From NCBI RefSeq assembly GCF_026210795.1, contig NC_089432.1:2852001-2916000 (forward strand): a DNA stretch of 64,000 bases, in the 5' to 3' direction. Under the pieces are notes generated by a model. The model was not told the DNA's origin, did no database searches, and saw only the letters and a program-made list of their open reading frames with translations. This document shows positions 21,116-64,000 of the stretch, in pieces; positions within the stretch are counted from its first letter, which is position 1; each line of letters starts with the position of its first letter. The position numbers and the translations under genes were made by a program. Origin of the DNA: Rhizophagus irregularis (Eukaryota; Glomeromycota; Glomeromycetes; Glomerales; Glomeraceae).

Positions 21116-22242
21116 AAACTATTTAATAAAGAATTTGTTAGTAATAATAGAATAAAATAAATAACAGTAGTTTAAATTATATGTAAGACGGGGTGATGAT
21201 CACCGGTGGCTGAAATTATGACGATCGACCAGCATTAAAAAATATAGTGCCGGTATAATTGATAATTCTGGCCAACGGTGATGATCACCCTGGTGATTTG
21301 AAGTAAAAATCATAATAAAATTAAATAAATAACTCATAACTTACCAACTAAAGAAATACAAAATAATTTTTAAATAAAGAATTTAGTTAGTTTAAATTAT
21401 ATGTAAATACTATGATATAATAGAATTAAATAATTAACATACCATCTATAAATAATTTTTTAAATAAAAGAATTTAGTTTAAATAAATTATAATAAAATT
21501 AAATAAATAACATATAACTTACCAACTAAAAGACATTACAAAATAATTTTAAAGAATTTAGTTAGCTTAAAATTATATAAATAATAGAAATATAGGTATT
21601 TATAACTTACACCCTAGTATTAATTAATTAATTATTAGTTAAATATAAATGTAATACAAATATTTTACTGCATATTAAATATATCACTTACAATCTGGTT
21701 ATTTAAATTAAGAATATAATTAGTTGAATTATATAAAATATTAAAACAAATAAATATAATATTGTAACTTACTATCTGTAATACAATTAATTATTAAATA
21801 GTTATTTAAATAAAGAATTTAGTTATTTTGAATATTATGCAAAATAAATAAAGTAAAAAAAAAATCTAATAACTATCAACTTACTGACTATATTGATTAC
21901 ATGAAATATAACAAAAATGATAAGTAATTCTATTATTATTCAATTGTAATATAACTTATTAACTTACGAGCTAAAAATATTTAATATAATTTTTTGTATA
22001 ATATAGTTAATTTAAATTATATTTATATATTATGTAAGGTATAAATAATTATAGGTAGTATTTAAATGTATTTACAAATAAAAATTTAATATTTTAGCAT
22101 GTTTAATATACCTTTAGATTCCCTGATGCTACTTTCTTTAAATTCTTCAGAAACTAATTTATTACATTGCAAGTTTGTTAAAAATTTTAGAGTTCTAATT
22201 ATATACTATATAATTATTACCTTTATTATTACTTTCAGCCAT
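21116..22242 (-). pseudogene. Truncated inverted copy of the microexon kinase gene (5' part only)
   Basis: On the minus strand exon 1 (22242-22221) encodes MAESNNK and exon 2 (22153-22112) encodes VSEEFKESSIRESK, both with GT-AG borders. Intron-like units follow, each beginning GTAAGT or GTATGT and ending TAG/CAG, separated by single codons: CTC (21968-21970), TCA (21885-21887), ATA (21773-21775), ATT (21692-21694), GGT (21611-21613), TTG (21523-21525), ATG (21443-21445), TTG (21345-21347), TTT (21116-21118). The first exons and six of the first six to seven codon positions match the locus at 34092. Beyond about 21000 the similarity stops and no kinase domain follows, so this copy is probably a 5' fragment of the gene or a non-functional duplicate. 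A MITE-like insert lies in the last intron. Confidence 0.6.
21186..21298. repeat. ~110-bp MITE inserted in a microexon-array intron
   Basis: The left end CGGGGTGATGATCACCGGTG is matched in inverted orientation by CGGTGATGATCACCCTGGTG at the right. It interrupts an otherwise typical intron unit, lengthening it to about 226 nt. It is richer in GC than the array. Confidence 0.65.
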
Positions 22243-29639: not shown

Positions 29640-30160
29640 AATAATGATAATTATTTATTTAATGAAATTTTATTTGCAAATATTAAAATTTAAGTCACCC
29701 ATTTACGATTTTAAAGAAAAAAATCACCATATATTTATTTTTATTTAAGTGTAAAAATAAAAGAAACAATAACAATAAATAAAAGGATAAGTAAATTACA
29801 ATAATCAAGGAGAAAGATGCTAATAAAAAAATGAAATAACAGTGGGAGTAATGGAAAGTAATAGAAGATGAAAGGTAGTAAAAAAGAGTAATGAGAAGTG
29901 ATAGGAAACAAAAAGGAGAAATAGGACATAATGAGAGATGAAAAGGAGTGATGGGAGACGAAAAGAAGTGATGGGAGACAAAGAGGAGTGATAAGCAATA
30001 AAAAGGAGTTATGGGAGACAAAAAGAAGATGAAGAGGAACAAAAAGAAGTGATGGGAGACGAAAAGAACGAAAAAGAGTGATGGTAGACGAAGAGGAGTG
30101 GTGGAAGACGAAAAGGAGCGATGGGAGATGAAAAGAAGTGATGGGAAGATGAAGAGAAGT
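29640..30160 (-). repeat. Inverted partial copy of the 1.35-kb minisatellite element
   Basis: AATGAAATTTTATTTGCAAA...TTAAGTCACCCATTTACG is the reverse complement of 2715-2785. The following purine-rich AGGAGTGATGGGAGACGAAA units are the complement of the minisatellite at 2030-2560. The terminal inverted repeats of the original element are absent here. Confidence 0.85.
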
Positions 30161-34091: not shown

Positions 34092-37000
34092 ATGGCTCAC
34101 AGTAATGATAAGGGTAATAATTATATGTAATATATATAGCGTATAATTAGAATAAAATTTTTAAACAAATTTGCAATGTAATAAAATTAGTTTCCGAAGA
34201 ATTTGAAGGAAGTACTAGTACCAAGGAATCTGAAGGTATATTGAACAGGCTGAAATATTAAATTTTTGTTTGCATACTATCTATAATTGTACCTTACATA
34301 ATAATTTAAGCAAACTAACTATTATACAAAAAATTATATTAAATAATTTAGCTCGTAAGTTAATAGGTTATATTACAATTGAATAATAATGGAATTACTT
34401 ATCATTTTTGTTATATTTCATGTAATTAAATAACTTATTTAATAATTAATAATACTATAGTCAGTAAGTTATTAGTTATTTAAATATTTGGTTTTTTACT
34501 TTATTTTATTTTACATAATATTCAAAATAACTAAATTCTTTGTTTAATAACTATTTGATTAATTAATTGTATTACAGTTGGTAAGTTACAATATCATATT
34601 TATTTGTTTAATATTTTATATAATCCAACTAATTATATTCTTAATTTAAATGACCAGATTGTAAGTAATATATTTAATTTGCAGTAAATATTTTGTATTA
34701 CATTTATATCCAACTAAATAGTTAATTAATAATACTAGGGTGTAAGTTATATATACCTATATTTCTGTTATTTATATAATTTAAATTAATTAAATTAAAA
34801 TTATTTTGGAATTTCTTTTAGTTGGTAAGTTATATGTTATTTATTTAATTCTATTGTTACTTAATTTAAACTAATTAAATTTCTTTATTTAAATAGATAG
34901 TAAGTTATAAGCTATTTATTTAATTCTATTATTACTTGTTTATATAATATTTATATATAATTTAAACTAACTAAATTTCTTTATTTAAATAGATAGTAAG
35001 TTATAGGTTATTTATTTTATTACTTGTTTATATAATATTTACATATAATTTAAATAACTAAATTCTTTATTTAAATAGATTGTAAGTTATAAGTTATTTA
35101 TTTAATTCTATTATTACTTATTTATATAATATTTATTTATAATTTAAACTAATTAAATTATTTATTTATAATATTATTTAATAATATAGGGTGTAAGTTA
35201 TTTATTTAATTCTATTATTACTTATTTATATAATATTTACATATAATTTAACTAACTAAATTCTTTATTTAAAAAAATATTTTGTAATTTCTTTTAGTTG
35301 GTATGTTATAACTTATAAGTTATCTATTTAATTCTATAATATTTATTTACATTAGTTGTTTACATATATGATTTATATATAATTTAAAATTAACTTCTTA
35401 TTTAAAAAATTATTTTGTAATTTCTTTTAGTTGGTAAGTTATAAGTTTTTTATTAATCCTATTATTACTTGTTTATGTGATAATTAAATATAATTTAAAC
35501 CAATTAAATTCTTTATTTAAATTATTTAAATAGATGGTAAGTTATAAGTTATTTAATTCTATTATTACTTATTTATATAATATTTACATATAATTTAAAC
35601 TAACTAAATTCTTTATTTAAATAGATGGTAAGTTATAAATTATTTATTTAATTCTATTATTACTTATTTACATATAATTTTAACTGACTAAATTCTTTAT
35701 TTAAATAGATTGTAAGTTATAAGGATTGATTTAATTCTATTATTACTTATTTATATAATAATATTTACATATAATTTAAATTAACTAATAAATTCTTTAT
35801 TTAAATAGATGGTAAGTTATAAGTTATTTATTTAATTCTATTATTACTTATTTATATAATATTTATTATTTACATACAATATAAACTAACTAAATTCTTT
35901 ATTTAAAAATTTATTTTATAGGTGGTATGTTATTTATTTAATTCTTTTATTACTTATTTATATAATATTTATAATATGAGTAAATTTATTCATCGCACGT
36001 GCGATGCATCGCCACTTTCCTTTTTTGTAAATTATTTATGTTGATCAACCTGCTTATACATCGCCACCCCCCTTAAAATGGCAATGATAAACATAAAAAT
36101 TTGCATCGCACGTGCGATAAATAAATTATTTCTTATAATATTTACGTGTAATTTAAACTAATAAAATTCTTTATTTAAATAGATTGTAAGTTATAAGTTA
36201 TTTATTTAATTCTATTATTACTTATTTATATAATACTTATATATAATTTAAACTAACTAAATTTTTTATTTATAGGGCGTAAGTTATATTTATTTAATTC
36301 TATTATTACTTACTAATTATATAATATTTACATACAATTTAAACTAACTAAATTCTTTATTTAAAAAATTATTTATAGATGGTATGTTATTTATTTAATT
36401 CTATTATTACTTATTTATATAATATTTTCATATAATTTAAGCTAACTAACAAATTCTTTATTTAAATAGATGGTAAGTTATGAGTTTTTTATTTAATTCT
36501 ATTATTAGTACTTATTTATATAATATTTACATATAATTTAAACTAACTAAATTCTTTATTTATAATATTATTTAATAATATAGGGCGTAAGTTATTTATT
36601 TAATTCTATTATTACTTATTTATATAATATATACATACAATTTAAACTAACTAAATTCTTTATTCAAAAAATTATTTCATAGATGGTATGATGTTATTTA
36701 TTTAATTCTATTATTACTTATTTATATAATATTTACATATAATTTAAACTAATTAAATTCTTTATTTATAATATTATTTAATAATATAGGGCGTAAGTTA
36801 TTTATTTAATTCCATTATTACTTATTTATATAATATTTATTATTTACATACAATTTAAACTAACTAAATTCTTTATTTAAAAAATTATTTTATAGATGGT
36901 ATGTTATTTATTTAATTCTATTATTTAATATTTACATATAATATGAATTAACTAAATTCTTTATTTAAATAGATAGTAAGTTATAAGTTATTTATTTAAT

Positions 37001-39374
37001 TCTATTATTACTTGTTTATATAATATCTATATATAATTTGAACTAACCAAATTCTTTATTTAAATAGATTGTAAGTTATAAGTTATTTACTTAATTCTAT
37101 TATTACTTATTCATATAATATTTACGTATAATTTGAAGTTTTAAACTAACTAAATTCTTTGCTTAAAAAATTGTTTTATAGATGGTATGTTATTTATTTA
37201 ATTCTATTATTACTTATTTACATAATATTTTCATATAATTTAAACTAACTAAATTCTTTATTGAAAAATTATTATTTAATAATATCTGATAGGGAGTAAG
37301 TTATTTATTTAATTCTATTATTACTTATTTATCATATAATTTAAACTAAATTCTTTATTTAAAAAATTATTTAATATTATAGGGCGTAAGTTATTCTATT
37401 ATTACTCATTTATATAATGTTTACATATAATTTAAACTAACTAAATTCTTTATTAAAAAATGATTTTGTAATTTCTTTAGTTGGTAAGTTATAGGTTATT
37501 TATTTAATTCTATTATTACTTATTTGCATATAATTTAAACTAACTAAATTCTTTATTTAAATAATTATTTTATAGATGGTATGTTATTTATTTAATTCTA
37601 TTATTACTTATTTATACATATAATTTAAAGTTTTAAACTAACTAAATTCTTTATTTAAATAGATACTAGTAAGTTATAAGTTATTTATTTAATTCTATTG
37701 TTACTTATTTATATAATTTACATGTAATTTAAACTAACTAAATTCTTTATTTTTATAGATGGTATGTTACTTATTTAATTCTACTATTACTTATTTATAC
37801 AATATTTATATACTAATTTAAACTAACTAAATTCTTTATTTATAAAAATTGATTTAATAATATAGCTTGTAAGTTATTTGTTGTTTGTATTTTATATAAT
37901 ACTTATTTGTTAATTGAATTTTTTCATTCAAATTTCTGTTACTTTAGTTGGTAAGTTGTAGGTTATTATTATTATATATATTTATACAAAAACTAAGACA
38001 TACAGTATATTATATTAAATTTTTATTTAAATTTTAGAGTAAGTGTTGATTTTAATCTTATAACTTTTGATATAAATTTCAATATAATTTCAATTATTTA
38101 AATTTGTAGATTTGGAAAAAGTGGAAATGTAAATATGGATAACTTTATTTTAGAAAAAAAATTAAAATGGATTCCTTATGATAAATTTAAAAATATTGAA
38201 TATCTTGATAAAGGAGGATTTGGTACTATATATAAAGCTAATTGGTTAATTAATAATGAAGATAAAGAAGTAGTTCTTAAATGTCATGATAATTTAAGTG
38301 AAAATTTAAATGAATTTTTAAATGAAGTATGATAATATATTATTTTATTTTATAATTTAAATCATAATTTATTTATACTAATATATTATGATTTTTTTAT
38401 AGTGGAAATATCACAAAAGTTGTTTAGGTTCAGATAAAATTATTTATTTTTATGGCTTTACAAAAGCTCCAAATACTTTGAAATATATGATGGTAATGGA
38501 TTATGCAAATGGAGGTAATTTAAGAGGAAACTTAACAAGAATAATCGAAATTGTTTGGAATCAAAAATTATATATGTTACATGAAATTATTTCTGGACTT
38601 AATAATATACATGAACAAAATCTTATTCATTGTGATTTTCATGATGGTAATATTTTAAATCATTATGAGAATAAAATTTATATTAGTGATTTAGGATTAT
38701 GTAAACCTGTAAAATCATTTATGAAAAAATATGATATTTATGGTGTTATACCATTTATGGCACCTGAAGTTTTAAGAGGCAAATCTTATACTCCAGCTAG
38801 TGATATTTATAGTTTTGCTATGATTATGTGGGAATTTACATCTGGGGTAACACCATTTAATAATAGAGCACATGATGTTCAACTTAGTTTAAGTATTTGT
38901 AAAGGTGAACGTCCTGAAATTATCAAAAATACTCCACAATGTTATGTAGATTTAATGGAAAAGTGTTGGGATGAAAACCCATTAAAAAGGCCATCTTCTA
39001 AAGAAGTTTTGAATATTATTAAAAATTGGGTTTTTTTTTCAGGTAAAGGGGAAGTTGAAGATATTAATGAAAAATTGAAATGTAATATTATGGAATTTAT
39101 AAATGCACCAATTGGGCATAACAATAATCTTTCTATTGAATCTCATCCACAGTCATGTTATACAAGTCGCTTACATGGTTTTACTAGTAAACAATTGAAT
39201 GAAATTCTTGGAAGTAGAGATTTACAAGCTTATTATTCAAGTCAATCTACTAGTGGAAAAGTGAATGAAATTCTTGAAAGTGAAGATTCACAAGCTAGTG
39301 TAAAAGTGGATGAAATGCTATTAAGTGAAAATTTGGATGATTGTATATTTAATTTGAAGTCATTAGGTATGTAA
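34092..39374 (+). CDS. TKL-type protein kinase with N-terminus encoded by ~37 microexons
   Basis: Proposed exons: 34092-34113 (MAHSNDK), 34191-34235 (VSEEFEGSTSTKESE), then one-codon exons at 34352, 34461, 34578, 34658, 34739, 34822, 34897, 34993, 35079, 35190, 35298, 35431, 35534, 35625, 35709, 35809, 35922, 36183, 36276, 36379, 36470, 36584, 36683, 36790, 36896, 36973, 37068, 37182, 37293, 37383, 37481, 37576, a 6-nt exon at 37663-37668, 37759, 37866, 37948 (start positions, 3 nt each), a 1-nt exon at 38038, then 38110-38326 and 38403-39374. The sum is 456 codons with no internal stop. The microexon part reads ALIDWFDNNWFV... and is rich in Asp, Gly, His and Trp. The kinase domain has Gly loop KGGFGT (about 94-99), VVLK (117), HCDFHDGNIL (Asp 210), DLG (228-230), APE (252-254) and an intact RP..KEVL end, so it is likely active. 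FGKSGNVNMDNFI, lying before the ATG at 38135, resembles the segment that family members have before WIPYDKFKNI, which supports an upstream start. Splicing of the array is inferred. Confidence 0.6.
34355..38109 (+). repeat. Tandem array of ~37 intron-like units (72-130 nt) spaced by single codons
   Basis: The consensus unit begins GTAAGTTATAAGTTATTTAT or GTATGTTATTTATTTAATTC, continues TATTATTACTTATTTATATA and AATTTAAACTAACTAAATTC, and ends TTTATTTAAATAG. It carries a 5' splice-site consensus, an AACTAAC branch-site-like motif about 15-45 nt before the end, and a TAG acceptor. Successive triplets between units are CTC, TCA, TTG, ATT, GGT, TTG, ATA, ATA, ATT, GGT, TTG, TTG, ATG, ATG, ATT, ATG, GTG, ATT, GGC, ATG, ATG, GGC, ATG, GGC, ATG, ATA, ATT, ATG, GGA, GGC, TTG, ATG, then ATACTA, ATG, CTT, TTG. 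Central units are nearly identical; the first six and last three are diverged. Confidence 0.9.
35984..36126. repeat. ~140-bp MITE inside one array intron
   Basis: TTTATTCATCGCACGTGCGA at the left and TCGCACGTGCGATAAATAAA at the right form inverted ends, and each arm itself contains the palindrome ATCGCACGTGCGAT. It expands the host intron unit (35925-36182) to 258 nt while both splice-like borders stay intact. Confidence 0.75.
38135..38140 (+). other. Internal ATG of the kinase gene, alternative short start
   Basis: An ATG here would give a 388-residue kinase (65 codons before the 38327 intron plus the last exon) beginning MDNFILEKKLKWIPYDKFK. The open frame and family-like residues (FGKSGNVN) continue upstream into the exon that starts at 38110. 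I therefore prefer the distal start, but this ATG could serve a transcript that skips the array. Confidence 0.4.
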
Positions 39375-57825: not shown

Positions 57826-60057
57826 TTAAACTTTTTTCAACATATTTAATTTTAATTTTGCATCTTGATCTCCTTGTTCAGCAGCTTTTTTGTACCAATA
57901 AATTGCTTGATTTATATCCTTTTTAATTCCATTACCATTTTCATACATTAATGCAAGATTAAATTGAGCTGTATCATTTTCTAAATTTGCTGCTTCTTGA
58001 TATAATTCAAATGCCTTTTGTACATTAACATCAGTTCCAATTCCATTATCATAACAATATCCTAAAAGATTTATTCCACCTGAATTTTTTCCATCCGCTG
58101 ATTTTTTAGATAATTCAAAAGCTTTATTATCATCATCAAGTCCAAATTCACTTCCATGTATATGTAATAATGCAAGATTATATTGAGCTAAATTATTACC
58201 TAAATCTGCTGCTTTTTGATATAATTCAAATGCTTTTATCCTATTAACATCAGTTCCTATTCCATTATAATAACAATATCCTAATAAATTTATTCCACTT
58301 AAATACTTTTTTTCTACTAATTTATTAGATAATTCAAAAGCTTTAATATGATTTATAATAGTACCATCACCATCTATATACATTAAAGCAAGACTAAATT
58401 TAGCTATATTATTACCTAATTCGGCTGATTTTTTATATAATTCAAAAGCTTTTTGTTTATTAATAATAGTTCCAATTCCATAATAATTAAAATATCCAAG
58501 TAAATAAATAGAATTAGAATTATTTTGATTATTTAAGAGCCAATTATAAATTTCTTTTATAGAAATATTAAAAGTATTAATAATTTTAAAAACATCTTTT
58601 CTTCTTGTTTTTTCTTCTTTTCCTTCATTTACTTCCTTAAAATAAAGTTTAACTAATTCATCAATAATAATACTTAAATCCTCTTCATAAATGTTTCCAT
58701 GAATATTTTGTGTTGTAGGTTCGATTTCCTTTATATTAATTTTATTAAAATTTGGAATAATTTGAAATAATTCTTCATTCGATGAATCATTTGTATTTGA
58801 TGTATTACCATAATCAAAATTAAGTTTAGGTTTCTGTGTTATCGTTTTGTTTTTTGTAATAATTTCTTTTAATTTAGCAACTACTTGATCCATTGTTGGT
58901 CTATTATCTGGTTCATTATCCCAGCATTCTAAACAAGAAACAAAATGAGATCTTTCAAATTTAATGTTTTTAAAAATTAAATCATTATATTTACCTGTAT
59001 AAAGAATAGAGTAATCAAGAGGAGTATTTTGAACAATCGTCTCTCTATAACCTTGTAAGATTCGCATAACCAAACCAGTATCAAATGGTTCATCCTTAAA
59101 TGGTAGTCTACCACTTGATATTTCCCATAATAATACACCAATACTATATACATCACTCTTCTCATTTAATGGAGATTGCTTTATTATATTAATATTATTT
59201 AACCATTTTGGATCAATATAAGGAATTTTATCGAATGAACTCGATCGTTGATTATTAGATTCTTCAATTCTTTTTGATAAAAATCCAAAATCGGCTAATT
59301 TGATAGTATTTTGATGAACTAATATACTGCCAGGGTGCTATTATAAAAATATAATAATAAAATATATAAGTGATCAAACATAAAAATAATTTTTAAAATA
59401 ATTTTAATGAAATAAGTCAATTAAGTCAATTACCAAATTACAATGTACGATCCATCTATCATGTAAAAATAATACAGCACATGTCAATTGATATGCCATT
59501 TCATGTTTATCTTTCCAAGTAAGATTATTAAAATTTTCTTTTAAATAGCTTCGAAGGGAACTACCATCAGCATACTCCATTACAAGTAAACATTTCTTAG
59601 TTTGATCAATTAGATTTTCTAGAAATAAATGAGTTTATTGATATAAAAAAAAAGTAAATATAATATTCTTAAAAATATTTAATATTTTTTCTTACCTTTG
59701 TCAGTGATACCAAAAAATTTAATAATTTTTTTATTTAAATCAACTTCACGACGAAGTTCAAGCTAATATTATTAAAATTAATATTAATTCTATTACGAAT
59801 AAATTAATCGTATATAATAAAATTACCTCGTGGATGATTTCCTTTACATTTGTGCTGTTAGCGTTAAAGGATTTAAGTACAAAACATTTTTCCGAATTTT
59901 TCCAATTTGCACGACAAACATTTTTACCAATTTTTTTAATATTATGAAAATGTTCGTATTCATAATATTTTATATCATTTTCAGAAATGGCTTTTTCAAT
60001 CCAAATAATCCAGTCATTTGGATTTTTGTTAATTTGTACGTCGTTTTTGTCAGACAT
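57826..60057 (-). CDS. Probable pseudokinase with Sel1 repeats (paralogue 3)
   Basis: Exons on the minus strand: 60057-59827, 59762-59696, 59618-59434, 59337-58995, 58928-57826; 643 codons including the stop. Exon 3 is 185 nt as in all paralogues. The Gly loop is deleted (KKIGKNVCRANW against IQEIGSGAFGKVYRANW), and HRD is replaced by HCN (residues 158-160), removing the catalytic Asp. The VAIK-type Lys (FVLKSF) and DFG (177) remain. Catalysis is therefore unlikely, and a scaffold or allosteric role is a reasonable inference. Sel1 repeats fill roughly residues 400-640 (A.ELY.KAADLGN.LAQYNLA). The last intron (58929-58994) is 66 nt with no stop in frame, so its retention would give a 22-residue-longer protein. 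Head-to-tail with the next minus-strand paralogue. Confidence 0.88.
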
Positions 60058-62009: not shown

Positions 62010-64000
62010 TTAAAAAAATTCTTGCATATCATTTAAATCATTTAATCTATACATAGCATCTTTATCTCCTTGTTCAGAAGATCTTTTATACCAATAAATT
62101 GCTTGACTCATATCTCTTTTAGTCCCATTTCCACTTTCATACATCAAAGCAAGATTATATTGAGCTATACTATTTCCTAAATTTGCAGCTTTTTGATATA
62201 ATTCAAAACCTTTTTCCATATCAATATCAGTACCAATTCCTTTATAATAACAATAACCTAATAAATTCATACCACCTGAATGACCACCTTCCGCTGATCT
62301 TTTAGATAATTCGAAAGCTTTATCATCATCTTTATCAATAACTTCACCATCAATATACATATCAGCAAGATTACATTGAGCTCTAATATTTCCTTGATCA
62401 GCAGCTTTTTGAAATAATTCAAATGCTTTTTGTACATCAACATCAGTTCCAATTCCATTATAATAATAATATCCTAAAAGATTTATTCCACTCAAATATT
62501 CTTTTTCTGCTAATTTTTTAGATAATTCAAAAGCTTTATCATAATTTTTAATATCACCTTCACCATCTTCATATAAATAAGCAAGACTATATTGAGCCAA
62601 ACAATTATCTAATTCTGCTGATTTTTGATATAATTCAACTGCTTTTTCTTTATAAACATTAATTATAATTCCATGATAATTAAAATATCCTAATAAATAA
62701 ATAGAATTTGAATCATTTTGATTATTTAAAAGCCAATTATAAATTTCTTGTAAATTTATTTTAAAATTATTAATATAATTTAAAATATTTTTCTTTCTTG
62801 TACTTTCTTCTTTTCCTTCATTTACTTCTTTAAAAGAAAAATTAATCAATTCATCAATCACAATACTTAAATTTTCTTCAAATATATTTTTATGAATATT
62901 CTTTGTTGTAGGTTCTAATTCTTTTATATTTGTTTTATCAAAATTTTGAATAATTTGATATAAATCTTCATTTAATTGATTATTATCTGATGTTAGTGAT
63001 GTAGAATCAAGTTGATCTGATCGTTTTAATATCATTTTGTTTTTCGTAATAATTGTTTTTAATTTAGAAACCACTTGATTAATTTCGGGTCTATTATCTG
63101 GATCGTTATTCCAACATTCTAAAAATAATAATAATAATAATAATAGTAAATATAAGATTTTAATTTAAATAACATTAAAAATTAATTATATTTACCAATA
63201 TAGAGAATAGAATAATCAAGAGGAGTATTTGAAACAATTGATTCTCTATAACCTTTTAAAATTTTCATAATTAAATTATCATTATATGATTCATCTTTAA
63301 ATGGTGATTGACCACTTGATATCTCCCATAATATTACACCAATACTATAAACGTCACTCTTCTGATTTAATGAGTACGGATTTGATGAGTACGAATTTAA
63401 TAAGTACGGTTTTAACATTTTTGGTTCAATATAACATATCAAATCCGATTTTTGATTAGATAATTCCTTGGCCCTTTTCGATAATCCAAAAACGGTTAAT
63501 TTGATTGTATTTTGATGAATTAATATATTATTAGGGTTCTATTGTAAAAAAAATATATAATATGAATTTTATGAAAATCTTTTAAATTATTCAACATTAT
63601 AAAAATTAGTAAAATTACCAAGCCACAATAGGAAATCCCTTTATCATGTAAATGTGATACAGCACATGTTAACTGGTATGCAAATTCGTACTTGTCTTCC
63701 CAAGTTAGTTTATTAAAGTTTTCTTTCAAATAGTTTCGAAGGGAATTACCATTAGCGTACTCCATTACTAATAAATATTCCTTCGCTTGATTATTTCGAA
63801 CTTCTAATTCAAAAGTAGTTAATTAATATATTTTATAAAGTCGAATTAAAAATATATAATTCATAACTTTAAATATTGTAATACATATATTACCTTTACT
63901 CGTAATACCAAAAAATCTAATGATATTTACGTGTAAATTAACATCGTTACAAAATTCAAGCTAAATTACAAATATAACTGATTCGTAAATGATTAGACCA
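62010..64000 (-). CDS. Probable pseudokinase with Sel1 repeats (paralogue 4), 5' end outside window
   Basis: Exons visible on the minus strand: 63960-63894, 63803-63619, 63538-63196, 63118-62010. Lengths of 67, 185 and 343 nt equal those of paralogue 3. The first exon, with the Gly loop, lies beyond 64000. HRD is replaced by YCG (HDKGISYCGL) and DFG by VFG (LTVFGLSKR), so both catalytic and metal-binding aspartates are missing and kinase activity is very unlikely. SDVYSIGVILWEISSG remains. The activation region carries a short LLNSYSSNPYSLNQ insertion with repeated codons. Sel1 repeats run from about 62700 to the stop (A.ELY.KAANLGNSIAQYNLA). It is the closest relative of the gene at 57826. 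Confidence 0.85.

Follow-up and report, generated by a model that had tools for sequence, protein, structure and literature searches.

Tandem arrays of putative one-codon exons leading into protein kinase domains in Rhizophagus irregularis

The stretch of DNA considered here (64,000 nucleotides of Rhizophagus irregularis, assembly GCF_026210795.1, contig NC_089432.1, positions 2,852,001 to 2,916,000 of the forward strand; hereafter the window, whose own numbering is used for all positions given without a contig) harbors a predicted protein kinase gene, the 5' part of which is occupied by a tandem array of 36 candidate microexons, all but one of them a single codon long. We put at about 0.9 the probability that this is a coding gene of a large family built from tandem intron-plus-codon units, in which all 3-nt exons, a 1-nt exon and the kinase exons would be joined in order.

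Architecture of the window gene

The joined model of the gene consists of the following features (all on the forward strand), one of which is an insert resembling a miniature inverted-repeat transposable element (MITE):

34092..34113, +: exon 1, ATG GCT CAC AGT AAT GAT AAG G (MAHSNDK plus 1 nt), ending in phase 1; similar first exons lie 5' of other arrays
34191..34235, +: exon 2, 45 nt, encoding the acidic VSEEFEGSTSTKESE, phase 1 on both sides; relatives carry repeated EFEGS / KESK stretches here
34352..37950, +: microexon array called by script, 36 units separated by 35 introns; 35 of the units are 3 nt long and one is 6 nt
35992..36118, +: MITE-like insert with 17-bp terminal inverted repeats, lying within one intron whose splice sites are intact
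37663..37668, +: sole 6-nt microexon of the array, ATACTA (script)
37951-38037, +: 36th intron, 87 nt, from the array end to the 1-nt exon (script)
38038..38038, +: 1-nt terminal exon 'A' in the context TTTTAG-A-GTAAGT, phase 1 to phase 2, by which the kinase exon is entered in frame
38110..38326, +: first kinase exon in the joined frame, EFGKSGN...KWIPYDKF...FLNE
38403..39374, +: second kinase exon in the joined frame, through the stop codon, with HCDFHDGN and DLG stretches that we take to be catalytic motifs

The layout of the array agrees with what an earlier note on this DNA had claimed: our script recovered, from 34352 to 37950, 36 spacers between a TAG or CAG acceptor and a GTRNG donor (3 nt in 35 cases, 6 nt in one), and the 36 introns measured (the last one included) span 72-130 nt, apart from a single one of 258 nt that carries the MITE-like insert. 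Two further statements of that note stand with exceptions, as the donors are GTAAGT or GTATGT in all units but the 3-nt one at 36683 (GTATGA), and the branch motif said to lie in each intron was found, by a permissive pattern, in 32 of the 36. The sequence AGNNNGTAAGTTA has 32 matches in the window (both strands), as against 0.17 expected in shuffles.

Phase 1 (one codon base before each intron) is kept by the end of exon 1, by exon 2 (for which an alternative acceptor 9 nt later would leave 36 nt instead of 45 and the frame unchanged) and by every microexon, and reading across the microexon junctions of the window array gives the peptide ALIDWFDNNWFVDDDYGDWHDGHGHDNYGRLDDTNAF. The joined model (exons 1 and 2, microexons, 1-nt exon and kinase exons) encodes 455 amino acids (aa) followed by a stop codon. 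The open frame into the kinase that had been proposed is thereby upheld, provided that the 1-nt exon at 38038, which the proposal omitted, is included: its single A and the first base of the kinase exon complete the codon GAA, the frame continues as EFGKSGN, and without it the frame fails to enter the kinase. The predicted protein falls within the kinase domain families (PF07714 / PF00069), with a PF07714 match at residues 89-336 (2e-42) scoring 145.8 bits against a Pfam gathering score of 23.1. The caution that little weight attaches to an open frame in a single array proved justified, since AA, AG and GA are the sole stop-capable microexon starts in this phase and none of the 37 window units begins with any of them.

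Stop codons at microexon junctions and the extent of the arrays

Exon 1 and the kinase exon impose a phase in which each junction codon takes its first base from the end of one microexon and its other two from the start of the next. We inspected these codons in 33 arrays from the same genome, forming 34 chains (one of which is the tail of array L019, situated in locus L020) with 1039 units; as other arrays contain many units starting with AA, AG or GA, this comparison answers the caveat raised for the single frame. The unsplit chains contained 1 stop in 1011 junction codons, compared to 33.4 ± 4.6 in 2000 within-array shuffles (minimum 17), and this single stop crosses a 203-nt gap in which a unit was possibly missed. 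When chains were split at gaps longer than 180 nt, no stop was left among 941 junction codons (28.4 ± 4.2 in 1000 shuffles of exon order, minimum 16), and the same absence held when each distinct ordered microexon pair was counted once (0 of 351, 21.1 expected). All three stops were missing, namely TAA (0 vs 9.4 expected), TAG (0 vs 14.5) and TGA (0 vs 4.2), and among the 10 of 16 starting dinucleotides that were printed no other combination with an expectation of at least 4 stood at zero. Correspondingly, A, C or G preceded AA, AG or GA in 145 cases (110.3 expected). With three more arrays included, the tally became 1 stop in 1035 (32.6 expected), this stop spanning a unit of array L046 that had been dropped for its ambiguous acceptor.

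The avoidance is restricted to immediate neighbors. Pairs formed by skipping one unit (35 stops in 854, 26.2 expected) or two units (34 in 771, 23.7 expected) displayed none, and neither did pairs read in reverse order (29 stops, 28.6 expected). Since intron lengths are evenly spread modulo 3 (325/308/308), no genomic read-through frame accounts for the missing stops, and given that the bases forming one junction codon sit ~96 nt apart in the DNA, we see no DNA-level cause for their absence. This adjacent-only pattern points to selection on the consecutively spliced product, which must be translated often enough for stops to be purged. The proposal that tandem intron-plus-codon units are spliced into a kinase mRNA is in this manner supported by the cross-array comparison.

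A pattern search of the whole genome (146.7 Mb, 32 contigs; the reversed pattern served as control) returned 3772 matches to TAG-N3-GTAAGTTAT versus 62 for its reverse, a modest excess for the N6 spacer with GTAAGTTAT (119 vs 57), and no genome-wide excess for the N2 (35 vs 55) and N4 spacers (40 vs 110); within the spacers searched (2, 3, 4 and 6 nt), the excess at N3 that N2 and N4 do not share indicates that the spacer is fixed at 3 nt. Furthermore, TAGNNNGTAAGTTATAAG was matched 812 times and its reverse not once. As the GTAAGTTAT pattern is fitted by 62.4% of the units in the fetched arrays, the 3,710 above-background matches lead to an estimate of ~5,900 putative one-codon exons in the genome.

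The final set, fetched by pattern match and covering part of the genome's arrays, comprised 1139 units in 36 arrays. By strict calling, 895 of 910 exons across the 36 arrays were 3 nt long, 13 were 6 nt and 2 were apparently 2 nt (one each in L046 and L047), for both of which an upstream alternative acceptor giving 6 nt is the better reading. Single loci held 10-73 units, besides a 9-unit truncated copy (below). A 1-nt terminal exon was present in 33 of the 36 arrays (31 A, 1 G, 1 T), a kinase-like motif lay at most 700 nt away in 34 of the 36 (loose pattern, any frame), and a stricter pattern placed a kinase exon in the required phase for 27 of 35 chain rows. Both the 1-nt exon and the kinase were lacking in the truncated minus-strand array of the window and in L019, the end of which falls in the next locus (L020) and has there its own 1-nt exon (C) and kinase; in L024 the kinase motif is present, no 1-nt exon with a matching donor was found, and a degenerate TTTTAGAGTAATTG is listed. 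The array peptide starts with ALNDW in 11 of 33 arrays (by reading), and DW or NW occurs within the first five residues in 28 of the 33 (the exceptions being L010, L011, L018, L025 and L031).

Regarding the upstream exons, 23 of 35 chain rows passed the score of the script that picked them; because this script demands an open frame, its picks are not independent evidence, and several (e.g. that of L016) are not credible. Of 17 joined models, 16 are open from the chosen ATG across the array as far as the kinase exon; L023 meets a stop at residue 13, and the model of L010 breaks off prematurely within the kinase. The counts leave out L017 and L026 (which coincide with L016 and the window, respectively), L012 and L027 (no array called), L001-L008 (overlapping L009) and L020 (overlapping L019) except for its last three units, one of which duplicates the last unit of L019. 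The stop counts also exclude 12 spacers of 5, 7, 8, 9, 10 and 11 nt, several of which are a 3-nt unit repeated beside a doubled GTAAGT, others having weak donors.

In two arrays (L046, C21:737000-743200; L047, C24:854300-857700) the 3-nt microexons are mixed with several 6-nt ones, and 6-nt pattern matches are also clustered at C16:3493422-3496668 and C24:904857-920514. In L019 (C2:1345500-1355400) a block of ~13 units is repeated two to three times, which suggests that units spread both singly and as blocks. The truncated family relative in the window was delineated by scripts:

21116..22242, -: exon 1 (ATG at 22242), exon 2 and 9 microexons (21970-21116)

The scripts found neither a 1-nt exon nor a kinase for it, and an insert with inverted ends (~21293-21186) can be seen by eye inside it.

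Divergence of the microexons and alternative explanations

The putative microexons differ from their introns in composition (GC content 38.5% vs 9.7% in the intron bodies), and the third microexon base (the first base of a codon) is evenly distributed (26/23/26/24% A/C/G/T, 0.00 bits), while each of the 26 flanking positions considered carries at least 0.44 bits. A branch-like motif was found by a simple pattern in 727 of 928 introns across the arrays. Between nearest unit pairs with 0.8% mean flank divergence (70 pairs) exons differ in 34% and 3-column intron windows in 2.4%; for 186 pairs at 2.2% flank divergence the values are 51% and 6.3%. As pairs were selected by flank similarity, which lowers flank divergence, we also compared held-out near-exon intron, which differed by 4.6-9.2% per site against 31-56% for the exons in the four classes with up to 10% selected-flank divergence, and by 11.6% against 50% and 16.1% against 71% in two small classes above 10%. 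The comparison shows that, between similar units, the predicted codons differ more than the introns surrounding them. A test of single exon differences found 9 of 66 to be synonymous (13.5 expected), which is non-significant under a uniform model (p=0.11) and reaches p=0.0087 when transition bias is included; a wider pair set held 13 synonymous and 120 nonsynonymous single differences (counts for which no expectation was computed). Positive selection on the microexons is therefore not proven by these sequences, as the introns are possibly constrained, exons may be copied by short exchanges, and the uniform-model test is non-significant.

To this non-significant test must be added several other observations that weigh against our reading. 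The splicing of the microexons is here a prediction from genomic sequence, and the sample of arrays, chosen via pattern matches, is non-random. The microexons taken as whole codons are also nearly stop-free (2 of 1045), and stops alone do not suffice to dismiss this phase, which is ruled out by its mismatch with exon 1 and the kinase exon (the third phase, formed by the last two bases and the first one, is ruled out by 184 stops in 1011). Several non-stop junction combinations fall below their shuffle means (observed/expected: ACT 4/14.4, GTT 28/50.1, GGG 31/50.1, ATC 0/2.9), others exceed them (GAT 97 vs 71.6, TTT 79 vs 51.7), and the stop counts at distances 2 and 3 lie above the shuffled means; unit order is thus non-random, as would be expected from growth by block duplication, which makes the shuffle an imperfect null. 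The array end at L048 has a 1-nt exon and no kinase in the ~820 nt examined. At this locus (C1:2291000-2292200, minus strand) TAG-A-GTAAG occurs twice, and it is perhaps truncated or part of another gene.

The database proteins likewise run counter to our reading. The array peptide was found in 0 of 129 (9 plus the 120 listed of 475 matches; start-motif regular expression, N-terminal parts by eye), and residues 34-80 of the L021 joined model, used as a query, yielded one candidate and no hit. A stretch at the end of that model's first kinase exon had been lost through the script, which leaves the searched residues intact. The orthologue P0006 (Rhizophagus irregularis DAOM 197198w), letter-for-letter identical to residues 69-455 of the joined model, begins at the internal ATG and is devoid of the array peptide; its identity to the model places the DNA in R. 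irregularis or in a fungus very closely related to it. In P0001 and P0010, exon 2 appears by reading to be followed by just one 7-nt exon (NNNGTAA), whose donor lies 4 nt past the microexon donor; the reading frame that results is the one obtained with the full array and the 1-nt exon. By the same kind of reading, the models of P0003, P0005 and P0007 run through part of the last intron. In P0019 (Rhizophagus clarus) we noted KESK-AYDSC-KFGKSEN, in which a few residues separate the kinase start from an exon-2-like end; judged from its sequence, this short segment could represent a few joined microexons or an array-free form of the gene. The annotation of R. irregularis has been refined with Nanopore reads, with 2,533 kinase genes (PMC10234402), and microexons go unmentioned in the passages of that article considered here. 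Aligners place 3-nt exons poorly. On that account, we do not regard the silence of the refined annotation as a disproof.

Three alternatives have to be set against the ordered joining of all units. The one that survives best, which we nonetheless deem unlikely, holds that the microexons are used and often skipped under regulation, yielding many variants per gene as in schistosome micro-exon genes. Because the units are all whole codons in phase 1, a skip would never shift the frame; the differential splicing of the schistosome genes is indicated by the title of a reference cited in PMC10526429. The neighbors that skipping would create are, contrary to this expectation, those in which stops are not avoided (35 of 854 and 34 of 771, see above), and skipped forms may hence constitute no large part of what selection sees. 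Frequent skipping thus seems improbable, and rare skipping of microexons is, on these sequences, possible.

We assign far less weight to the idea that the array amounts to a single long intron or consists of pseudo-exons that are skipped, with the kinase produced from a direct join to exon 2 or from an internal start at 38136. The retrieved database proteins fit it, in that the array peptide is absent from them, P0006 has the internal ATG as its start, and P0001 and P0010 skip everything but the 7-nt cryptic exon. Unused sequence would not, on the other hand, show a stop avoidance confined to adjacent units (0 in 941 vs 28.4, and none at distance 2), and both the exact 3-nt spacing and the frame-restoring 1-nt exon in 33 of 36 arrays would be left unexplained. 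Scarcely credible, finally, is the view of the array as a non-coding satellite, or as an element that delays expression and needs many functional introns, with the 3-nt spacer as a relic of the founding unit: the AT-rich and tandemly repeated unit, the strong intron signals and a unit order that is non-random beyond stop avoidance accord with it, and it fails to predict that TAA, TAG and TGA are all missing from a single phase, that a spread of codons is present, that spacers of 3 and 6 nt occur without those of 2 and 4 nt, or that the spacer differs more than its flanks do. In our assessment, the junction-stop test together with its controls leads to the rejection of satellite DNA, a single long intron and skipped pseudo-exons.

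Elsewhere in the window, coding-like tandem repeats of about 216-219 nt on the minus strand (57943-58505 and 62147-62698) presumably resemble Sel1-type repeats, and two arrays (2006-2515 and 29931-30146) consist of units with the 20-nt consensus TCCCATCACTCCTTTTCGTC and ATGGGAGACGAAAAGGAGTG, which are mutual rotated reverse complements.

Relation to known gene structures and biological meaning

Under the ordered joining of all units, the spliceosome would excise every intron and join the 3-nt exons in order, then the 1-nt exon and then the kinase exons, and the protein would gain one residue per ~100 nt of DNA. With its strong donor, its AG acceptor and, in most cases, a branch-like motif, each intron may be recognized by ordinary intron definition. 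As a 3-nt exon has little room for two side-by-side complexes, removal is probably serial and 5'-to-3', an order in which each step would set the grown 5' exon beside the next GTAAGT donor, with 3 nt staying behind each time. Gain, loss and exchange of units would be neutral to the frame because each is a whole codon with equal phase on both sides; the units are probably gained and lost by unequal exchange, a process which the range of 9 to 73 per locus fits and in which only stops at new junctions would need purging. The segment encoded by the array, positioned between the acidic leader and the kinase domain, may act as a variable input region of a signaling kinase, and we can only guess that it takes part in recognizing partners or self.

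Tentatively, and with clearly less confidence than in the splicing itself, we propose that the arrays are a device for hypervariability, by which a variable and possibly recognition-giving part of a kinase would be written one residue per intron-bearing unit. In this proposal unequal exchange would alter length and order without frameshift, diversifying selection would change codons many times faster than introns, and the ~5,900 one-codon exons would be spliced in a recursive-like, strictly 5'-to-3' fashion.

Among known systems, the schistosome micro-exon genes, as described in the parts of PMC10526429 considered, have exons of 6-81 bp (3-81 in the abstract), mostly of 15 bp, with 10-20 per gene, introns of up to 5 kb and secreted products. 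The likeness lies in the runs of many tiny exons, which automatic annotation traces with difficulty (PMC10526429), and, as far as sequence can tell, the arrays share the many consecutive very short exons (10-73 units each). The size range, in contrast, does not apply (895 of 910 exons being 3 nt), and here one-codon exons, up to 73 per fetched locus, are head-to-tail repeats of an intron unit feeding a kinase. The bicycle and megacycle genes of aphids contain many small exons of one phase (one gene with >100 microexons), their internal exons being almost all in phase 2, unlike the phase-1 microexons described here; by our arithmetic, ~2000 aa from >100 exons imply exons far longer than one codon, and a repeat of intron plus codon is unmentioned in the passages of that source considered (PMC9168663).

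Recursive splicing offers another likeness, as there too a strong donor comes directly after an acceptor and a long region is removed stepwise; however, at ratchet points, according to the sections of PMC8605326 considered, acceptor and donor are juxtaposed and such '0-nt' sites leave nothing in the mRNA, whereas 895 of 910 array units have 3 nt between them, which would be left at each step and appear to be under coding selection. The single-nucleotide exon of Arabidopsis APC11 and known 3-nt exons (as presented in the portion of PMC4674806 considered) indicate that splicing can handle exons as short as 1 and 3 nt, but these are lone exons, as compared to ~30 per gene and a recurrent 1-nt exon here. 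No report of one-codon-exon arrays was found in the open-access literature (subscription journals and bioRxiv being mostly outside the search), and none of the compared systems, as described, has such arrays. Head-to-tail arrays that spell a coding sequence one codon per exon may be viewed as the extreme end of the micro-exon genes and are presumably handled by the ordinary spliceosome.

If this holds true, it would be the most extreme exon-intron structure known to us, with dozens of one-codon exons in many genes of one genome, and would challenge current views of how small an exon may be if its splicing is to remain efficient and ordered. Direct tests of how far intron definition and serial splicing can go would become possible, and introns would offer a route to a freely extensible protein region. 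Moreover, the N-termini of many kinases would be mis-annotated in an important plant symbiont (an arbuscular mycorrhizal fungus), and the fast-changing kinase segment may be relevant to how these fungi recognize partners or tell self from non-self.

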